64,000 nucleotides of DNA from Solirubrobacterales bacterium (GTDB taxonomy: Bacteria; Actinomycetota; Thermoleophilia; Solirubrobacterales; Solirubrobacteraceae). This document shows, piece after piece, positions 1 to 45,548 of the stretch. Both the position numbers and the translations under genes were made by a program. Numbering within the stretch: position 1 is the stretch's first letter; each line of letters starts with the position of its first letter. The stretch is taken from assembly GCA_019240305.1 (NCBI GenBank), contig JAFAYP010000573.1:1-64000 (forward strand). The letters are read 5' to 3'. A model generated the notes under the pieces. The model did not search any database, had not been told where the DNA came from, and saw only the letters and a list, made by a program, of their open reading frames with translations.

Positions 1-105
1 CGAGATGCGCGGGGGCGGGGAGGACGCGACGTGATCGAGATGCGCGGGGGCGGGGAGGACGCGACGTGATCGAGACGCGCGGGGGCGGGGAGGACGCGAC
101 GTGAT
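1..105. repeat. 35-bp tandem repeat, 3 copies (cgaga[t/c]gcgcgggggcggggaggacgcgacgtgat)
   Basis: Direct reading: units 1-35, 36-70, 71-105, differing by one base; array is cut by the window edge. Confidence 0.9.
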
Positions 106-234
106 CGTGGGCGTGAGCGTGGGGTGGGCGAGCGGCGGATCTTTCTCACCGACCCTCGTGCGCACGCCGAAGGTGTGGTGGATTTGATGCGCGTCTGGGA
201 AACATCGCCACCGACCCCGGAGCACGCACCCGGG

Positions 235-34664: not shown

Positions 34665-34995
34665 GACGCGTTTGATGAACGCCTCGGCCACTCCCTGAAG
34701 GTAACCGGCCGCTCGAGCAATCGGCGACTCCGACAGGAGCAAAACGCGGTTCACGCTCGCGTTGATCAAGGGACAGCGGCCGGGGCGGGCGCTCGCATTG
34801 CGACGAATCCGCTCATCCGGCGGCCCGCGAGCTGACGATCGTGTTGCCGCCGCAAACGCCGTCGTCCGGGCGAGCGGCCGTGGCGGCGCCGGAATCAACC
34901 CCGTCTGTTCGCATGTTCGAGCGCGCGCCGGTGCCCGTGACCGACGGGCATCGAAGGAGATCAGGAGGTCAAGACCCGGGCACGCGCCGGCGCAC

Positions 34996-35056
34996 GGAGA
35001 TCGTGTCGCGCGTCCGTGCGCGGACCGGAGATCGTGTCGCGCGTCCGTGCGCGGAC
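34996..35056. repeat. 31-bp tandem duplication (ggagatcgtgtcgcgcgtccgtgcgcggac)
   Basis: Direct reading: copies 34996-35025 and 35027-35056 identical. Confidence 0.9.
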
Positions 35057-35304: not shown

Positions 35305-35586
35305 CTACGAGGCCTTGGTCGCCGCGACCGGGTGTTTGCGCGCTTCGTCGTAGAGCGGCTCGGGCGCCATGTCGAGGTCGCCGGGCCACGCGATCGTGCC
35401 GAACTGTTCTTCGACGTGGACCTGGGCGAAGACGGTCGGATCCTGGAGGGCCTGAAAGACGCCGCACCAGTCGTTCTCGGCGAAGCTGACGTCGCCGACG
35501 ACGCCGTCGTCGAAAGTGAGCCGGAGAACGTAGTCGTCGATCACCTCGACGGAGGTCACCGCGGGGAGTGCGGGAACATTGGCCAT
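35305..35586 (-). CDS. DUF2442 domain protein
   Basis: VEVIDDYVLRLTFDDGVVGDVSF...DPTVFAQVHVEEQFGTIAWPGDLDMAPEPLY. Confidence 0.88.
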   Translation of the reverse strand: MANVPALPAVTSVEVIDDYVLRLTFDDGVVGDVSFAENDWCGVFQALQDPTVFAQVHVEEQFGTIAWPGDLDMAPEPLYDEARKHPVAATKAS

Positions 35587-35596
35587 GAAGGGCAGG

Positions 35597-35860
35597 TTAC
35601 GAAAGCGGAGCGATCGGCAGAAGCGGCTCCTGGCATCGTGCCCGCTCCCAATTCGCGACGAGCTCGTCGCGATGGAGCGCGGCCCATTCGCGGACGAGCG
35701 CGAGGTCGTGCCTCGTGAGCCCGCCGGCCAAGAGCTGACCGTCGACCGAGATCGATGCGCGCCTGCCGGCGTGCTCCGCGTGGAAATGAGCGATGGGGTG
35801 GTCGCGCTCGTTCCAGAACATCGCGATCGTGATTCCGTGGAACGCGCTGATGCGGGGCAT
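35597..35860 (-). CDS. DUF4160 domain protein
   Basis: MPRISAFHGITIAMFWNERDHPIAHFHAEHAGRRASISVDG. Confidence 0.88.
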   Translation of the reverse strand: MPRISAFHGITIAMFWNERDHPIAHFHAEHAGRRASISVDGQLLAGGLTRHDLALVREWAALHRDELVANWERARCQEPLLPIAPLS

Positions 35861-36452
35861 CAGGGCGCCGCGTCGGCGGGCACATCCGGACCCGCCGTGG
35901 CTCGGAGGCCTGAGCCACCAGAGCGGCATCGTCGGGCCGCGGCACGTAGTGCAGGTAACGCATCGTCGTCTGGACGTCGGCGTGCCCCATCCACTCCGGA
36001 AGGCGGTGGATGTCGGTCGTGGCGATCATGCGCGTGCCAAAGGTGTGGCGCAGGTCGTGGAAGCGCAGCGGACGGAGGCCGGCGCGTCGCAGCGCGACGC
36101 CGTAACGGCGGCGCAGCGCGGACCCGTCGAGGTTTTCGCCCTCCGAGCCTGGGAACACCAGGTCGTCGTCGCCGACGAACCGATCGCGGCGGCCGAGCCC
36201 GGCGAGCACTTCGGCGACGTCGGGGGCCATCGGGACGGATCGGACCTTGCCGGACTTGGGTGACGTGAGCGTGCCGGCGGAGTAGCTCGCGCGGACACGG
36301 ACCCCAGAACCCGCGAAGTCGACGTCGTGCCAGCGCAGCGCGAGCAGCTCGCGGCGCAGGCCGGTGAATGCCGCGGTCACGAAGATCGCGCCGTCCTGCT
36401 CCGATCCGGCAGCACGCGCGAGGGCCATGACCTCCTCCGGCTCCGGGGACAT
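35860..36452 (-). pseudogene. Tyrosine recombinase catalytic domain, truncated
   Basis: TGLRRELLALRW, HDLRHTFGTR, MGHADVQTTMRYLHY; no N-terminal core-binding domain and no own stop before DUF4160. Confidence 0.8.
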
Positions 36453-37753: not shown

Positions 37754-37929
37754 GCCGTGCGACGACGCCCCCTGAACAAGACGTCTGCCCGTGGTGCTCC
37801 CGCACCGTTTGGCTTGACAACGGCGTGCTCACGATGCACGCGGTGCAGGTCGGGCTTGCGGAGTACTGCCCGTGCAGCGGGCTCACGCCTGAGCAGGCGC
37901 AGGAGAAGGCCGACGAGGTGAAGTCATGA
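37750..37929 (+). CDS. Small zinc-knuckle-like phage protein
   Basis: MSRATTPPEQDVCPWCSRTVWLDNG...YCPCSG; ATGA overlap with upstream gene. Confidence 0.6.
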   Translation: MSRATTPPEQDVCPWCSRTVWLDNGVLTMHAVQVGLAEYCPCSGLTPEQAQEKADEVKS

Positions 37930-38087
37930 GGGCCGCGATCCGTCGCACCTATGAGCTGCTGCGCGACCGTGAGATCGCGATCGCCGAGGCCCGCTGGGCC
38001 GAGGCCGAGAAGGCCCGACGCCAGCGCGAGTTCCGCGCTGAATGCGACGCGCGATACGGACGCAGCAGCAGCGAGGAGCGACGCTGA
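37926..38087 (+). CDS. Small hypothetical phage protein
   Basis: MRAAIRRTYELLRDREIAIAEARWAEAEKARRQREFRAECDARYGRSSSEERR; overlaps both neighbours. Confidence 0.55.
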   Translation: MRAAIRRTYELLRDREIAIAEARWAEAEKARRQREFRAECDARYGRSSSEERR

Positions 38088-39298
38088 TGCTTGCCGCGAC
38101 GCCGTACATGGGATGGAGCACGTACTACGGGGGCGGCCAGCTCAGCGAGCCCGCGATCCTCGCGACCGCCAGCCGTATGCGCGACGACGGCCTCCAGAAG
38201 GCCGGCTACAAGCTCGTGTGGCTCGACTGGGGCTGGGCGGGGGCGCGGCGCAGCAAGGGCCGCATCATCGTCAACCGCTACCAGTGGCCGCACGGCATGA
38301 AGTACTTGACCGACCGGCTGCACGCCGAAGGGTTCAAGGCCGGGATCTACACCGACACCGGACGATCGGGCTGCAACGGCAACGGGATCGGCTCGCTGGG
38401 GCACTACCGCGCCGACATGCGCCAGTTCGCCGCCTGGGGATTCGATGCCGTCAAGGTCGATGACTGCGGCGGCGTGCAGCAGGGCGTCCGGGTCACCTTC
38501 GGCCAGCACGCCACCCCCACCGGCGCCACCTGCGCTCACCTGGACCGCGGCGACACGCGGGCGCTGCCCGGTCACGCGCACCACACCGGGCCGATCCTGA
38601 CCCCGTCGACACAGTACCGCCAGGTCGCGCAGGCGATCCGCGCCTCGGGACGGCCGATGATCCTGTCGGTCGCGAACCTGTGGGATCCCGGGGAGGTCGC
38701 CCACAACTACCCGACCTACGCCAACAGCGCCTACAGCAACTACACGTGGGCGTCGCGTTTCGCGGCCTCGTGGCGGACCGACACCGACATCGGGTTCGCC
38801 GGGTGCATCCGCTGGCCGTGGGTGCTACGCAACTTCCGGGCCGACACCACGCACCCCGCGGCGGCACGCCCCGGCCACTGGAACGATCCTGACGATCTCG
38901 CCGCCGGGGTGGGCCTGAACTTCACCGAGGCGCGCGCGCAAACGCTCATGTGGTCGATGCTCGCCGCGCCACTGATGCTCGGCGGCAATCCGCTCACGAT
39001 GAGCGCCCGCGCGCTGCGGATGCTGGAGAACCCGCGAGTCATCGCGGTAGACCAGGATCCCCGCGGCATCCAGGCCCGTCAGATCAGCCCGTACGTGTGG
39101 TCAAAGCCGCTCGTGAATGGTCGCGCGGTCGCGTTCTTCAACACCACCACCCGGCCACTGGCGCTCTCCACGAGCGCCCACGGGACCGCGTGCAACGTGT
39201 GGACGGGCCGGTGTCGCCAGGCACGCCAGACCTTGAGCGCCCGCGTGGCGCCGAATACCGCGATCGCGTGGACGATCGGAGAGGAGCGGAGTCGATGA
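38087..39298 (+). CDS. GH27-like alpha-galactosidase/melibiase
   Basis: TPYMGWSTYYGG, YKLVWLDWGWAG, FKAGIYTDTGRSGC, FDAVKVDDCGG, WRTDTDIG, GHWNDPDDLAAGVGLNFTEARAQTLMWSMLAAPLMLGG are GH27 signatures; TGATG overlap with previous gene. Confidence 0.88.
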   Translation: MLAATPYMGWSTYYGGGQLSEPAILATASRMRDDGLQKAGYKLVWLDWGWAGARRSKGRIIVNRYQWPHGMKYLTDRLHAEGFKAGIYTDTGRSGCNGNGIGSLGHYRADMRQFAAWGFDAVKVDDCGGVQQGVRVTFGQHATPTGATCAHLDRGDTRALPGHAHHTGPILTPSTQYRQVAQAIRASGRPMILSVANLWDPGEVAHNYPTYANSAYSNYTWASRFAASWRTDTDIGFAGCIRWPWVLRNFRADTTHPAAARPGHWNDPDDLAAGVGLNFTEARAQTLMWSMLAAPLMLGGNPLTMSARALRMLENPRVIAVDQDPRGIQARQISPYVWSKPLVNGRAVAFFNTTTRPLALSTSAHGTACNVWTGRCRQARQTLSARVAPNTAIAWTIGEERSR

Positions 39299-39870: not shown

Positions 39871-40104
39871 ATGTCAGATACCGACACCGCCAGGGCCGCC
39901 CAAGGCAAGGTCGTCATCAGCCTGCCCAAAGAGGTCGGCCTGGACATCGACACGCTCGGCGACACCCTCGCCGAAGCCATTGAGCAGCAGACCGGCGTCC
40001 GGTTCGAGCTCAGTCGCGCTCAGGTGGTCCAGTCGATCGTCAAGCAGGCGATCGACCGCATGGACGCTGCCTATGACGCCGTGAACACTGAGGGTGAGCA
40101 GTGA
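39871..40104 (+). CDS. Hypothetical phage protein
   Basis: ATG 39871 preceded by agaaaggac RBS. Confidence 0.6.
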   Translation: MSDTDTARAAQGKVVISLPKEVGLDIDTLGDTLAEAIEQQTGVRFELSRAQVVQSIVKQAIDRMDAAYDAVNTEGEQ

Positions 40105-40823
40105 GCGGCCTGAGCGGGCAATACGCGACGGGCGTCTCCTGGGAACCCAGCGTCTCGGCCCCCAGCCGCCGCTGGCGCTCCCGGGAACTCGGCGAGCTGG
40201 CCGCAGCCCTCGCAGCGTTCCAAGGGGAAGTCACCACCATCCCAAAGGGCGCCTCCAACCCGTTCTTCAAGAGCCGCTACGCGACGCTCCCCGCCGTGGT
40301 CGAGGCCGCCTCGCCGCTGCTTGCCAAGCATGGGCTGAGCGTCAGCCAGTTCATCAGCCGCGAGCAGGACGGGGACGCGCTCGTTACGTGGCTGCTGCAC
40401 AAGTCGGGGCAGTACATGGCCGACACGATGCAGCTGCGCCCGGTCAAGCAGGACCCGCAGGCGCAGGGATCCTCTGTCACCTACGGCCGGCGCTACGCCT
40501 ACATGAGTGTCCTCGGGCTCGTGGCCGACGAGGACGACGACGGCAACGCCGCGTCCCGCAGTAAGGGGAACGGTCTTGCCGCCCCCGCAGAGGCCCCCAG
40601 CGAGCCGCAGGACGCGTCAGAAGGGGGCACCACGCTCGTGTCCGAGGGCACGCTGGTGGAACTCCGCAAGGCGTACAAGGCGGCCGGCGTTGATCGCAAG
40701 GGGTACGAGGCCGTGGTCGCCGAGGTGGGCGCCAAGGGGAAGACAACGGCCGAGCTGACGGAGGATCAGGCCACGTGGGTGGTTATCAAGTTGAGCGAAC
40801 TCGCCAAGCAGAAGGGGGCGTAG
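40101..40823 (+). CDS. ERF-family single-strand annealing protein
   Basis: NPFFKSRYATLPAVVEAASPLLAKHGLSVSQF...SSVTYGRRYAYMSVLGLVADEDDDGN. Confidence 0.9.
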   Translation: MSGLSGQYATGVSWEPSVSAPSRRWRSRELGELAAALAAFQGEVTTIPKGASNPFFKSRYATLPAVVEAASPLLAKHGLSVSQFISREQDGDALVTWLLHKSGQYMADTMQLRPVKQDPQAQGSSVTYGRRYAYMSVLGLVADEDDDGNAASRSKGNGLAAPAEAPSEPQDASEGGTTLVSEGTLVELRKAYKAAGVDRKGYEAVVAEVGAKGKTTAELTEDQATWVVIKLSELAKQKGA

Positions 40824-41543
40824 ATGGCCGCCATCTACTACAAGGCGTGTCGCCCAACCGAGCCGGCGACGGACTTCCATACCGGGACCATCAAGTATGA
40901 GGTCGGCATGCGCGCCCGTCCCCACAAGCACGAAGGCGTGGCGAGCATCTGTGGGCCGGGGGTCCTCCACGCGGCTGACGTGCCCGCCATGACCCTGATC
41001 AGCGGAGCCTGGCCGTGTCGCCTGTTTGAGGTCACCGGCAGGCCTATTGCTGGCTTCGACTCCTGCCATGAGCATAAGGGTGGCTTCGAGCAGTTGACGG
41101 TGGTGCGCGAACTCGACGCGCATCTCGCCCTCGGCCCGAATGGGCGCTACGTGGCCGGGATCATCGAGCGGTCCAAGCGATTGACTCGCGACGAGGCCAA
41201 GGCGCTTCGGGACGCAGCGCGGGACGCAGCGCGGGACGCAGCGTGGGGCGCAGCGCGGGACGCAGCGTGGGGCGCAGCGCGGGACGCAGCGCGGGACGCA
41301 GCGTGGGGCGCAGCGCGGGACGCAGCGTGGGGCGCAGCGTGGGACGCAGCGTGGGGCGCAGCGCGGGACGCAGCGTGGGGCGCAGCGTGGGGCGCAATTG
41401 CCCTGCTCATGCGTGACCTCATCACCCCCGAGCAGTTCGACCTGCTCTACGGCCCTTGGGCCGCGGTCGTCGGCTCGGCCGAGGACATGCTCGCCTACTA
41501 CGAACAGCACCGCAGGGATACGGGTGGCGAAGATGGCCGGTAA
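40824..41543 (+). CDS. DUF7666-like phage protein with Ala-rich tetrapeptide repeat
   Basis: N-terminal domain MAAIYYKACRPTEPATDFHTGTIKYEVG... then [D/G]AA[R/W] repeats. Confidence 0.7.
   Translation: MAAIYYKACRPTEPATDFHTGTIKYEVGMRARPHKHEGVASICGPGVLHAADVPAMTLISGAWPCRLFEVTGRPIAGFDSCHEHKGGFEQLTVVRELDAHLALGPNGRYVAGIIERSKRLTRDEAKALRDAARDAARDAAWGAARDAAWGAARDAARDAAWGAARDAAWGAAWDAAWGAARDAAWGAAWGAIALLMRDLITPEQFDLLYGPWAAVVGSAEDMLAYYEQHRRDTGGEDGR
41208..41399 (+). repeat. 12-nt coding tandem repeat, 16 units, two main variants
   Basis: Units CGGGACGCAGCG (A) and TGGGGCGCAGCG (B) plus one hybrid TGGGACGCAGCG; exact 12-nt period 41208-41399. Confidence 0.97.
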
Positions 41544-41724: not shown

Positions 41725-41918
41725 GTCTGGCGAGGACGTGGGCGCGGCGGCGCCTCAACCCCACGATCCGGCAGTCCAGGCGCAACGGCCTCCCCGTCGC
41801 GGAACGCAACGCGCGCCAGGGTGGCGGCAAGTTCACGAGGCCGGCCCCGAAGGTGCGCCGGGTGCGCAGCCGGGCCGCGGCCAGCATCGCGAAGGCGTCA
41901 CGAAAGGCGAACCGATGA
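41721..41918 (+). CDS. Small basic hypothetical phage protein
   Basis: Overlapping start (GTG) and stop with neighbours. Confidence 0.45.
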   Translation: MSLARTWARRRLNPTIRQSRRNGLPVAERNARQGGGKFTRPAPKVRRVRSRAAASIAKASRKANR

Positions 41919-42676
41919 CCGACACCAAGCCTACGGCTGAGGCCCGCTATCCGGGCATCCATGTGGAGTACTTCGAAGCACCCCGACGCCGGTATGCGGT
42001 CAACGGCAGCCCGGCCGTCAGCGTAACAACAGCACTCGGCATCCTGAACAAGCCCGCGCTACCGCACTGGAGCGCCCGCGTGACCGCTGAGGGCGCGTGG
42101 AAGATGGCGCACCGCAAGGGCTACAAGATGCCCGACACGTCACGCCAGTTCATCGACGACCTGAAACACCACGGGTATGACCACCGCTCGCAGACGAATG
42201 CCGCCGCGGGCCGGGGCGTTGACGTTCACGCCGTGTGGGAGAACTGGAACTCCCGCAAGGAGATCCCGAACGCCAGCGACTATCCCGAGGATCGTCGGGG
42301 CTACATCCGCGCCATGTCGAAGTTCATCATGGAGCACCAGCCGGCCTGCTCGGAGTCAGAGATCGTCGTCGGGTCCGCGGAGCACGGGTTCGCGGGGCGA
42401 CTGGACACGGTTGTGGTGATGGGCACGCAGAACGGGCCCGCGATGATCGACGTGAAGACGTCGAAGGCGGTGTACCCGGAGAGCCACTATCCGCAGCTCG
42501 CGGGCTATGAGTTGGCACGCCGCGAGTGCGGCCTGCCGCCCACGGAGCGCCAGGGGATTCTCCGCGTCGGCACTGACGGCGAGTACGAGGTTCGCTGGTC
42601 TGACGCCGAGCCCGAGGATTTCTTGTGCCTGCTTCGCGCGTGGCGCTCGCAGCAGCGATGGGCCCGGAAGCGATGA
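41915..42676 (+). CDS. PD-(D/E)XK-family exonuclease
   Basis: AAAGRGVDVHAVWE, GFAGRLDTVVVM...AMIDVKTSKAVYPESHYPQLAGYELA nuclease core. Confidence 0.85.
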   Translation: MTDTKPTAEARYPGIHVEYFEAPRRRYAVNGSPAVSVTTALGILNKPALPHWSARVTAEGAWKMAHRKGYKMPDTSRQFIDDLKHHGYDHRSQTNAAAGRGVDVHAVWENWNSRKEIPNASDYPEDRRGYIRAMSKFIMEHQPACSESEIVVGSAEHGFAGRLDTVVVMGTQNGPAMIDVKTSKAVYPESHYPQLAGYELARRECGLPPTERQGILRVGTDGEYEVRWSDAEPEDFLCLLRAWRSQQRWARKR

Positions 42677-43215
42677 CGAATCCCGGGCAAAGCAGCCCGA
42701 TCGTCCCCCAGGGCCCTCCGAAGCTCTGCCGTGGATGCGGCACCGTCAAGCCTCGCGCCGCGTTCTACGCCCGCCGCACACAGTGGGGCGTCTACGCGCA
42801 GTCGCGCTGCAAGGAGTGCGCTCGGACGCGACCCGAGAACGCGTCCTATGGCCGTCGGTATCGAACCCGCGTGTTCGCGGACCCCGAGGCCGCTGCGGTG
42901 TATCGCGACAAGCAGCGCGAGCGGGCTAGGCGCCAGCGCGGCACCCCTCCAGCCCGGTATCGAACCGGAGGCCCTAGCGCCACTGCCGGTGGCCTGCTGC
43001 CAGCCGGACCGTTCGCGCAATGGCTCGCCACGCTCGGCGACGGCCCCACGGCCATCGGCTTGGCGTGCGGCCTTGACCCCCGGCAGGTCGACAAGTACCT
43101 GAACGGCTCGCGTGACGTGCTCTTGGACGTGGTTGACCGCGCGCTGCTGAAGGCACACACGGCGACGACGCTGAACGACCTGTATCCGATCGAAGATGAA
43201 GGGAACGACGCATGA
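42673..43215 (+). CDS. Zinc-finger phage protein
   Basis: CRGCGTVKPRAAFYARRTQWGVYAQSRCKECARTRPENASYGRRYR. Confidence 0.6.
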   Translation: MTNPGQSSPIVPQGPPKLCRGCGTVKPRAAFYARRTQWGVYAQSRCKECARTRPENASYGRRYRTRVFADPEAAAVYRDKQRERARRQRGTPPARYRTGGPSATAGGLLPAGPFAQWLATLGDGPTAIGLACGLDPRQVDKYLNGSRDVLLDVVDRALLKAHTATTLNDLYPIEDEGNDA

Positions 43216-43568
43216 GTGACCTGATCCAAGCGACCGTGGTCGGTCGCCTCACCCGCGACGCAGAGTTGCGGCAGGCCGGCAGCGGGCAGGTGTGCGGCTT
43301 CCGCGTGGCCGCCACGCCCTACAAGTCAGAGGCCATGTTCCTCGACGTGTCCGTGTGGGGCCGTCGTGGCGAGGCCCTGCAGCCGCATCTGACCAAAGGC
43401 CAGCAGGTCGTCGTGGTGGGCGACCTGACGAGGCGCGAGTTCGAGCACAACGGCGAGCGTCGCGTGTCGCTCGAGCTGAACGCGACAGCGGTTGCTCTCG
43501 TGGGCTCGCGCGGCCAGCAGGCACCCGCGAGCGACGACAGCGACGATGACAAGGGCCTTCCGTTCTGA
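43212..43568 (+). CDS. ssb: Single-stranded DNA-binding protein
   Basis: QATVVGRLTRDAELRQAGSGQVCGFRVAATPYK...FLDVSVWGRRGEALQPHLTKGQQVVVVGDLTRREFEHNGERR. Confidence 0.92.
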   Translation: MSDLIQATVVGRLTRDAELRQAGSGQVCGFRVAATPYKSEAMFLDVSVWGRRGEALQPHLTKGQQVVVVGDLTRREFEHNGERRVSLELNATAVALVGSRGQQAPASDDSDDDKGLPF

Positions 43569-43589: not shown

Positions 43590-45548
43590 ATGACTGAGAT
43601 CCGGCTTCGCCGGGGCACGGCTGCCGCGTGGACTGCCGCCGCGCCGGTCTTGGATGTGGGCGAATTCGGACTTGAAACCGATACAGGCAGGATCAAGGGC
43701 GGCGACGGATCGACCGCGTGGCCAGCACTTCCCTACCAGATCACGCCGACGACCACGCCAGGGGGCGCCCTGGGCGTGGTATCGGGTTCTACTCGAACCA
43801 GCACGTATGGCGCGCCCGTACTGCGCGACTATATCTCCCTGCTCGATTGGGGCGCTGATCGCACCGGCCTGACCGACTGCACCGCGTATCTTCGCGACGC
43901 TGTTGCCGAGGCCCAAGCGATGCAGATCACCAACTACGGCAACCCACGCGGGGCGACCGTTCACGTCCCGTCGGGCGACTATCTCGTCACCGGGAAGATC
44001 AGCGTCCCCAACGGCGTGAGCATCATCGGGGATGGTTGCCTCTCGACGACATTCGTCATCACTCAGGCGTCCTTCAATGACAACTGCGTCTTTGAGCCCA
44101 CCGCTATCGACGGGTCGCAGGAGTTCATGGGGCTCGCAGGCTTCGCGGTATATGGACACAATGCGTACACCACGCCGGATGCCAATCAGGCCAATGCCGG
44201 CGCCGCGACGGCGGTAAATACGTCGCCGAGCAACACCTATCTAGCGTTCAGCTTGGTCGCGAACTCGATCAGCGGCTACACGTCACTCTCGAACGCTGGC
44301 TGGCCGTCCAACGGCACCTTCACGGTGGGAGCACAGCGCGTCAAGTACCAGTCCCTCAACGGCTGGACCTTCCAGGGATGCATGCTCGTCTCCAAGAACG
44401 GCCCTACGATCAACGTTGGGGATGCGATCGCTCCGGTTGCCACGAACAACGTGTCCGCCGTCCACCTGTTCGGGGTCGCCGCCCCATCGTTTCTTAGGCA
44501 GCTGTGGCTGGACGGATTTCCCGGCGAAACGGTTATCAGCGCGTATCTAAACGGCTGCCAGCTCCAGGACCTGGTCGTCAACCACTCCAACCGCGACTGC
44601 TGGCTGCATCAGTCCACGCGGACCGGGAACACCTTCCATAACTTGCTGGTCCAGTATTCCAACATGGCCAACACGGGCACGCAGTACGCCGGCCTGCACG
44701 TCATGGGGATCTCCACCGCGGCCCAGTTCGCCAATCTGCTGTCTATCGACACGCTCTATTCCGAGCAATCCAGCTCCAATCAGCTCGGGCTCTGGCTCGA
44801 CGACGCAGGATCGGTCAACGCGCAGAACGTCAACATGCAAGGCGGCAGCAGCAACTACACCACGCAAACCTGCGTGCAGATCGACAGCGACCAATCGGCC
44901 CCCTTGACCCAGGACGGGAGTCACACTGCGAACATCGGCCTGCGCAACATCCACGTTGGCCAGATCGGGCGCGTACTCCTCAAGGACAACGTGCGCGGCC
45001 GGTCTACTGCCGCGACGACGACGCAGGTAGGGCAGGCACTCACGCGCTATGACACCGAGGACAACTCTCCGGGGATCACTCGACCGTGGGCAGCCGGCGA
45101 GGTGTACTGGGCAGGGCAGCTTTGCGTGTACAACGGCGCGATCTACCAGCGCGCCACGGCTGGCGTTGCTGCCTCCACGTGGTCGACCGATGCCAGTGCT
45201 TGGACAGTAGTGACAAGTGGGAACCGCGTCAATTCGATCACGTCCTCTGCAACTCCGGCGATCAACGTCGGCACCACCGCCGTGTTCGAGATCACCGCTC
45301 TGGCAGTGAACATCACGAGCATGACAACCAACCTCACTGGCACGGCGGTCGATGGTCAGCAGCTCCGGATTCGGATCACGGATAACGGGACCGCGCAAAC
45401 CATCACCTGGGGCGCGGCGTTTGCCAATTCCGGCGTCGCTACTCTGCTCGCTACGACCGTTGCCAATAAGACTCACAATATCGGCCTACAGTATGACGGC
45501 GTAAGGGCACTGTGGTACTGCCTCGCCGTCGATGCCACTGGATACTAG
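43590..45548 (+). CDS. Pectate-lyase-fold tailspike/receptor-binding protein
   Basis: N-terminal IRLRRGTAAAWTAAAPVLDVGEFGLETDTGRIKGGDGSTAWPALPY tail-fibre tether; LLDWGADRTGLTDCTAYLRDAV..GATVHVPSGDYLVTGKISVPNGVSIIGDG pectate lyase superfamily; C-terminal VYWAGQLCVYNGAIYQRATAG carbohydrate-binding-like. Confidence 0.85.
   Translation: MTEIRLRRGTAAAWTAAAPVLDVGEFGLETDTGRIKGGDGSTAWPALPYQITPTTTPGGALGVVSGSTRTSTYGAPVLRDYISLLDWGADRTGLTDCTAYLRDAVAEAQAMQITNYGNPRGATVHVPSGDYLVTGKISVPNGVSIIGDGCLSTTFVITQASFNDNCVFEPTAIDGSQEFMGLAGFAVYGHNAYTTPDANQANAGAATAVNTSPSNTYLAFSLVANSISGYTSLSNAGWPSNGTFTVGAQRVKYQSLNGWTFQGCMLVSKNGPTINVGDAIAPVATNNVSAVHLFGVAAPSFLRQLWLDGFPGETVISAYLNGCQLQDLVVNHSNRDCWLHQSTRTGNTFHNLLVQYSNMANTGTQYAGLHVMGISTAAQFANLLSIDTLYSEQSSSNQLGLWLDDAGSVNAQNVNMQGGSSNYTTQTCVQIDSDQSAPLTQDGSHTANIGLRNIHVGQIGRVLLKDNVRGRSTAATTTQVGQALTRYDTEDNSPGITRPWAAGEVYWAGQLCVYNGAIYQRATAGVAASTWSTDASAWTVVTSGNRVNSITSSATPAINVGTTAVFEITALAVNITSMTTNLTGTAVDGQQLRIRITDNGTAQTITWGAAFANSGVATLLATTVANKTHNIGLQYDGVRALWYCLAVDATGY

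Follow-up and report, generated by a model that had tools for sequence, protein, structure and literature searches.

In-frame tetrapeptide repeats of variable number in a prophage protein with a predicted RIIB/DUF7666-like domain: a possible adjustable counter-defense protein

A prophage gene in the 64-kb stretch of DNA analyzed here (the window) encodes a 239-residue protein in which sixteen tandem 12-nt units, each specifying [R/W][D/G]AA, lie in frame ahead of a conserved C-terminal tail (Table 1). We consider it very probable that this is a turnover array within an adjustable protein. The explanation that we favor overall, at close to but below an even chance, is an early-phage three-part protein with a slippage-varied array and a counter-defense role; that role, which we reach by analogy with other phage proteins, is a tentative best guess, some way short of even. 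A reading of the letters alone had already described a sixteen-unit, two-variant 12-nt coding repeat in a phage protein, and this description holds in position, in frame, and in its placement within a prophage ORF. The source contig (G000:C175), from an incomplete genome, is 98,238 bases long; the window covers its first 64 kb, and the rest was used for annotation only. We regard the element as a prophage because the contig carries terminase, portal, protease, and tape measure genes, integrases, and a repressor-like HTH protein.

Table 1. Positions of the array, the parts of its protein, and neighboring genes in the window
Feature	Position	Strand	Evidence
ORF bearing the array, 239 aa, phrog_8332 (PHROG 8332, function not assigned)	40824..41543	+	phrog_8332 E=4.7e-41
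N-terminal beta domain, residues 1-121, predicted RIIB C-terminal/DUF7666-like	40824..41186	+	AlphaFold2, Foldseek, hhalign
12-nt tandem array, sixteen units, [R/W][D/G]AA each, last unit WGAI	41208..41399	+	TRF and unit reading; in frame
Hybrid unit 12 (h), TGGGACGCAGCG, encodes WDAA	41340..41351	+	
C-terminal helical tail (ALLMRDLITPEQFDLLYGPW...), kept in most homologs	41400..41543	+	alignments; AlphaFold2 helices 202-215 and 219-232
ERF-type single-strand annealing protein, upstream neighbor	40101..40823	+	PF04404 E=3.4e-22; phrog_2324 E=1.4e-43
Phage exonuclease, downstream neighbor	41915..42676	+	phrog_298 E=1e-27
SSB	43212..43568	+	PF00436 E=1.4e-16

The units follow the order A A A B A B A A B A B h B A B B', where A (CGGGACGCAGCG) encodes RDAA, B (TGGGGCGCAGCG) encodes WGAA, h is the hybrid, and B' reads WGAI since its 3′ end is AATT. 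Units 1-15 vary at unit positions 1 and 5 only, and silent variation is absent from the 12-nt DNA units. The TRF score of 273-306 is far above that of every other tandem repeat in the window. The alternation of RDAA and WGAA in a fixed register that had been proposed did not survive a runs test (p=0.08-0.40, depending on the scoring of unit 12), which gave no significant departure from random order in the window array. The longest exact repeat within the array is 67 nt, so that long-k assembly could resolve it. A 60-nt block duplication inside that repeat (units 2-6 = 7-11) was dropped as evidence, chance matches being expected with two unit types. Antisense ORFs across the array were likewise rejected as genes: they are open merely through the stop-free 12-nt unit, and conservation tracks the + frame. 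The sole other copy of the array that we found, IMG/VR 3300037853_000138, begins at window position 37926 and is identical across 7615 nt; it is probably the same metagenomic contig and hence no independent isolate of the array.

Turnover of whole units is most directly seen between close relatives. The flanks of loci L037 and L038 are identical at 1184 of 1200 nt upstream (98.7%) and 599 of 600 downstream (99.8%), and their arrays differ: that of L038 is longer by 24 nt (two units), with the units reshuffled and only 4 types in common among the 7 and 9 present. L039 and L040, identical at 1193 of 1202 aligned columns upstream, differ in their arrays by a clean six-unit insertion of 72 nt. Both pairs are metagenome assemblies, for any single one of which misassembly is possible, and further scans of viral sequences for near-identical pairs yielded nothing beyond these two. 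A similar pattern is found in isolate genomes of the relatives of phage Tweety, whose matched flanks are 100% identical and whose proteins of 374, 334, 302, and 246 aa differ by multiples of 4 aa. Unit number and order thus vary by whole units among homologs, in keeping with the variation that the sequence-only reading had anticipated. Five Propionibacterium prophages (L071, L080-L083) retain an unchanged array while their flanks differ by several percent, which indicates that turnover is not always fast.

The homologs number about 60 in viral contigs and come from actinobacterial and other phages. In viral contigs, scans gave 18 loci and later 60; genomes contributed 6, among them Brevibacterium casei and Streptomyces. 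Clavibacter phage CN1A (homolog CN1A_10) and the Propionibacterium phages PFR1 (homolog PFR_34) and PFR2 were matched as well. L002 and L026 were left out as the same contig, as were L085-L087, duplicates of L029, L034, and L041, and L020-L022, which lie in genomes of the same genus or family, were rejected as low-complexity matches in unrelated reading frames. The common plan is an N-terminal β-domain of ~100 residues, then an [x x A A]n array, then a conserved C-terminal helical tail resembling RDLITPEQFDLLYGPW. The match of the window protein to the phrog_8332 profile extends over residues 3-219 (profile 20-244 of 248). L054, L070, and L074 have few or zero units, the latter two being without an array. 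A similar [x x A A] array also stands behind an unrelated N-terminus (W..LPNA..ID) in L014 (3947-4405), L016 (3363-3770), and L017 (3908-4372), which suggests that such arrays originate in proteins of several kinds.

AlphaFold2 modeled the window protein from 41 sequences with a mean pLDDT of 81.8, rising to ~90 in the N-terminal β-domain. Helices were predicted at residues 122-155 and 179-195, within or adjoining the array, with low confidence at 157-177, followed by two C-terminal helices. The model of a shorter homolog has the same plan, and the middle of its array is of low confidence too. On these models the array is quite likely helical, and it is predicted so at both ends, which bears out the helix expected earlier; it may be a single long helix or may fold into a hairpin. 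With respect to the N-terminal domain, Foldseek against viral models matched DUF7666 proteins and, with probability 1.00, RIIB proteins for both models, and hhalign against an alignment of nine RIIB proteins aligned the RIIB C-terminal domain over 97 columns (probability 66.8%, score 38.2, compared to a maximum of 16.0 among 100 shuffled or reversed controls). We are therefore highly confident, within the limits of modeled structure, that the domain is RIIB/DUF7666-like. A PDB fold search with the full chain gave no significant match. For DUF7666 (PF24703) the fold matches, and the best two relatives score 21.0 and 20.7 bits (E about 5e-4), below the Pfam gathering cut-off of 27 bits; a Pfam scan of the window protein itself did not reach the family, and a DUF7666 search in 150 genomes gave no match, with none for its controls either, and so carries no information. 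A DUF7666-like fold is also present in ankyrin proteins of giant viruses and pentapeptide proteins of phages, and the fold alone is therefore no proof of counter-defense.

The distribution of variation was compared across 53 arrays. Within-array diversity is 0.53 at unit base 1, 0.50 at base 5, and ~0.10 at third positions, that at the first and second positions of the Ala codons being zero by construction; the two variable bases of the window array are thus those of the whole family. The non-Ala residues are mostly R/W/G/L and D/G/A/N/V. The Ala-Ala hexamer is almost uniform inside most arrays and differs among them, with 11 modal hexamers. Nonsynonymous exceeds synonymous variation (pN>pS) in 45 of the 53 arrays (Wilcoxon p=1.6e-6), in a test that is conservative, since Ala codons are forced constant, and whose p-value is a guide, since the homologs are not fully independent. 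We read this pattern as homogenization by unit copying together with selection that retains residue variety, and turnover by unit gain and loss, plus such selection, is well supported.

These data also bear on another possibility, that the Ala helix is a neutral or structural spacer that merely separates two domains, its unit number drifting by replication slippage with no adaptive value. Tandem repeats are prone to such drift, and a spacer would sit well with the retention of Ala while other residues vary, with the low confidence of the array middle in both models, and with the homologs whose arrays are very short or absent. Drift and homogenization, however, should not spare silent sites while replacement sites vary, and the differences within arrays are mostly amino acid changing, the silent sites being homogenized. 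Unit number also has a strong phenotype in the analogous Tweety gp54 (PMC9262239). We therefore regard a pure spacer as rather unlikely.

Coupling between the two variable residues provides a further view of how units are exchanged. The sequence-only reading had reported that Arg goes with Asp and Trp with Gly, and within the window array this coupling is significant (p=0.001 by MI permutation, p=0.0014 by Fisher's test). As a general rule the coupling fails: it is array specific, with the reverse pairing in L036 and L032, and R-D/W-G was rejected as a functional rule, the pooled odds ratio of the other arrays being 1.05 for R/W by D and, in the opposite direction, 0.60 for D against G. Of 50 arrays, 20 showed coupling within the unit at p<0.05 and only 4 showed coupling of adjacent units, a disparity that fits the copying of whole units, of which coupling would most simply be a trace. 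The variable bases lie 3 invariant bases apart within a unit and 7 apart across a border, and exchange would accordingly fall more often at the border. Moreover, steps of 12 nt never break the frame, so that gain and loss of units would tune the length and surface of the protein, not switch it on and off as in the phase variation proposed earlier.

The closest functional precedent is gp54 of mycobacteriophage Tweety, described as an intriguing counter-defense protein with an obscure mechanism. Its repeats, 12-bp AA[GWQ][SY] units, vary at the first and second positions of codons (PMC2884959); escape mutants that overcome prophage-encoded defense are reported to carry more or fewer repeats, tuned to the Phrann or MichelleMyBell defense (reviews PMC9262239, PMC8549241). 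Like Tweety gp54, Che8 gp57, and PMC gp51, the window protein is encoded by a temperate actinobacteriophage gene with in-frame 12-bp units of two invariant Ala and two variable residues, with most of the variation in the first two positions of a codon, and as in the gp54 family unit number differs by whole units between relatives with identical or nearly identical flanks. Unlike gp54, its N-terminal part is unrelated (hhalign probability 0.2%; a whole-length comparison aligns 18 repeat residues only), and its residue alphabet is R/W and D/G as against G/W/Q and S/Y. Counter-defense is established by escape mutants for gp54 and is extended to the window protein by analogy only, so that the latter may work like gp54, yet outside the gp54 family. 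A second repeat of varying number, VR2 of bbp36 in Bordetella phage BMP-1, lies in a non-essential phage gene and changes copy number by isolate (PMC2884959); by the description given there, it differs in having a 24-bp unit of unrelated sequence. Crossroads gp132 was dropped as a second tetrapeptide precedent, tetrapeptides not being mentioned in PMC6426596.

The other end of the protein may point toward a similar function. By annotation, T4 RIIB guards against prophage-induced lysis (prophage exclusion), and lysis of T4 rIIB mutants on lysogenic strains is rapid owing to prophage effects. The resemblance to RIIB of T4 and its relatives comprises the 97 aligned columns and the fold; the window protein differs in having neither HTH nor RIIB core and in placing the domain at the N terminus, ahead of a repeat array. 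No RIIA partner was found among the scanned neighbors (ERF, exonuclease, HNH-like, SSB, and tail-type proteins). That two parts of the protein resemble parts of proteins that counter prophage exclusion is suggestive of counter-defense.

We propose that an early phage protein of three parts, a RIIB/DUF7666-like β-domain, an Ala-based helical [x x A A] segment, and a conserved helical tail, would be varied as follows. Whole 12-nt units would be gained, lost, or reshuffled when identical stretches, chiefly the invariant C-GCN-GCN of the unit, slip or pair unequally; this slippage route is one that we infer. The frame would be kept throughout, and the length of the segment and its pattern of charged and aromatic residues would change. 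Selection would retain the Ala residues as well as the flanking domains, while favoring variety at the other two positions. The flanking domains would act on a host or prophage-encoded defense complex, and the number and pattern of units would tune which complex is met, as in Tweety gp54. A broader proposal, which we put forward as an unlikely one, is that the family is a widespread actinobacteriophage class in which a RIIB-type counter-exclusion domain is coupled with a tetrapeptide helix that varies by itself, the helix serving as a mutational dial for re-tuning to new prophage-encoded defenses; T4 rIIB and Tweety gp54 would then represent one functional strategy on different domains. If a separate family does use the same dial with a RIIB-like domain, adjustable tetrapeptide helices would be a general phage strategy. 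Natural pairs that differ in array length, together with the homologs carried by the phage isolates PFR1, PFR2, and CN1A, make the family suitable for testing directly how repeat number sets specificity.

The array may instead present a variable recognition surface on the helix, with unit order determining which protein, DNA, or membrane partner is bound and no role against defenses. Diversity concentrated at the two non-Ala residues is what an exposed face would show, and a binding surface, also raised by the sequence-only reading, is possible. The early recombination neighborhood makes receptor binding unlikely, however, and the recurrence of the R/W mix in arrays of distant phages would point to a physical requirement rather than to fine recognition. 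We consider a recognition surface devoid of a defense role unlikely, and by analogy a counter-defense protein adjustable in length and surface fits the gp54 precedent better.

The possibility of a DNA-level element, such as a replication, recombination, or packaging site that is incidentally translated, draws on the lack of silent variation in the window array and on the adjoining recombination genes; it is largely refuted, and very improbable in our estimation, by the change of the DNA unit between homologs (the 11 modal Ala hexamers) under a conserved protein pattern. Targeted hypermutation, for example by a diversity-generating retroelement, is suggested by the PF18454 Mtd_N domain in the neighbor at 43590 and is hardly credible given that a search for reverse transcriptase (PF00078), whose control works, finds none in the genome, which is 73% complete, that variation is not adenine specific, and that a change in unit number is not a retroelement product.

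The gene lies between the ERF annealase and the exonuclease, downstream of which come an HNH-like gene and SSB, as well as a tail-type protein whose N-terminal domain is of the Mtd type. Adjacency to ERF, which had been put forward for recombination tests, is not common to the homologs: ERF matched at 0 of 63 loci by single-sequence tblastn over partial flanks. The same method placed a recombination gene near the homolog at 12 or more of the 63 loci, a lower bound since many flanks are short. PADLOC gave no match among the proteins scanned. The tail-type protein (43590-45548) combines the Mtd_N domain with a pectate-lyase-like domain and sits right after the recombination genes and SSB, apart from the structural genes. 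Near the prophage edge, an alpha-galactosidase at 38042-39298 (PF16499 Melibiase_2, E=1.6e-36) is possibly cargo. Integrase-like genes flank the phage region on both sides, at window 35556-36449 (-) and contig 93466-94527 (+), the latter in L092, and a perfect 2 x 31-nt tandem repeat occupies 34995-35056 next to the integrase region. At the start of the contig, window positions 1-107 hold three copies of a 35-nt unit.
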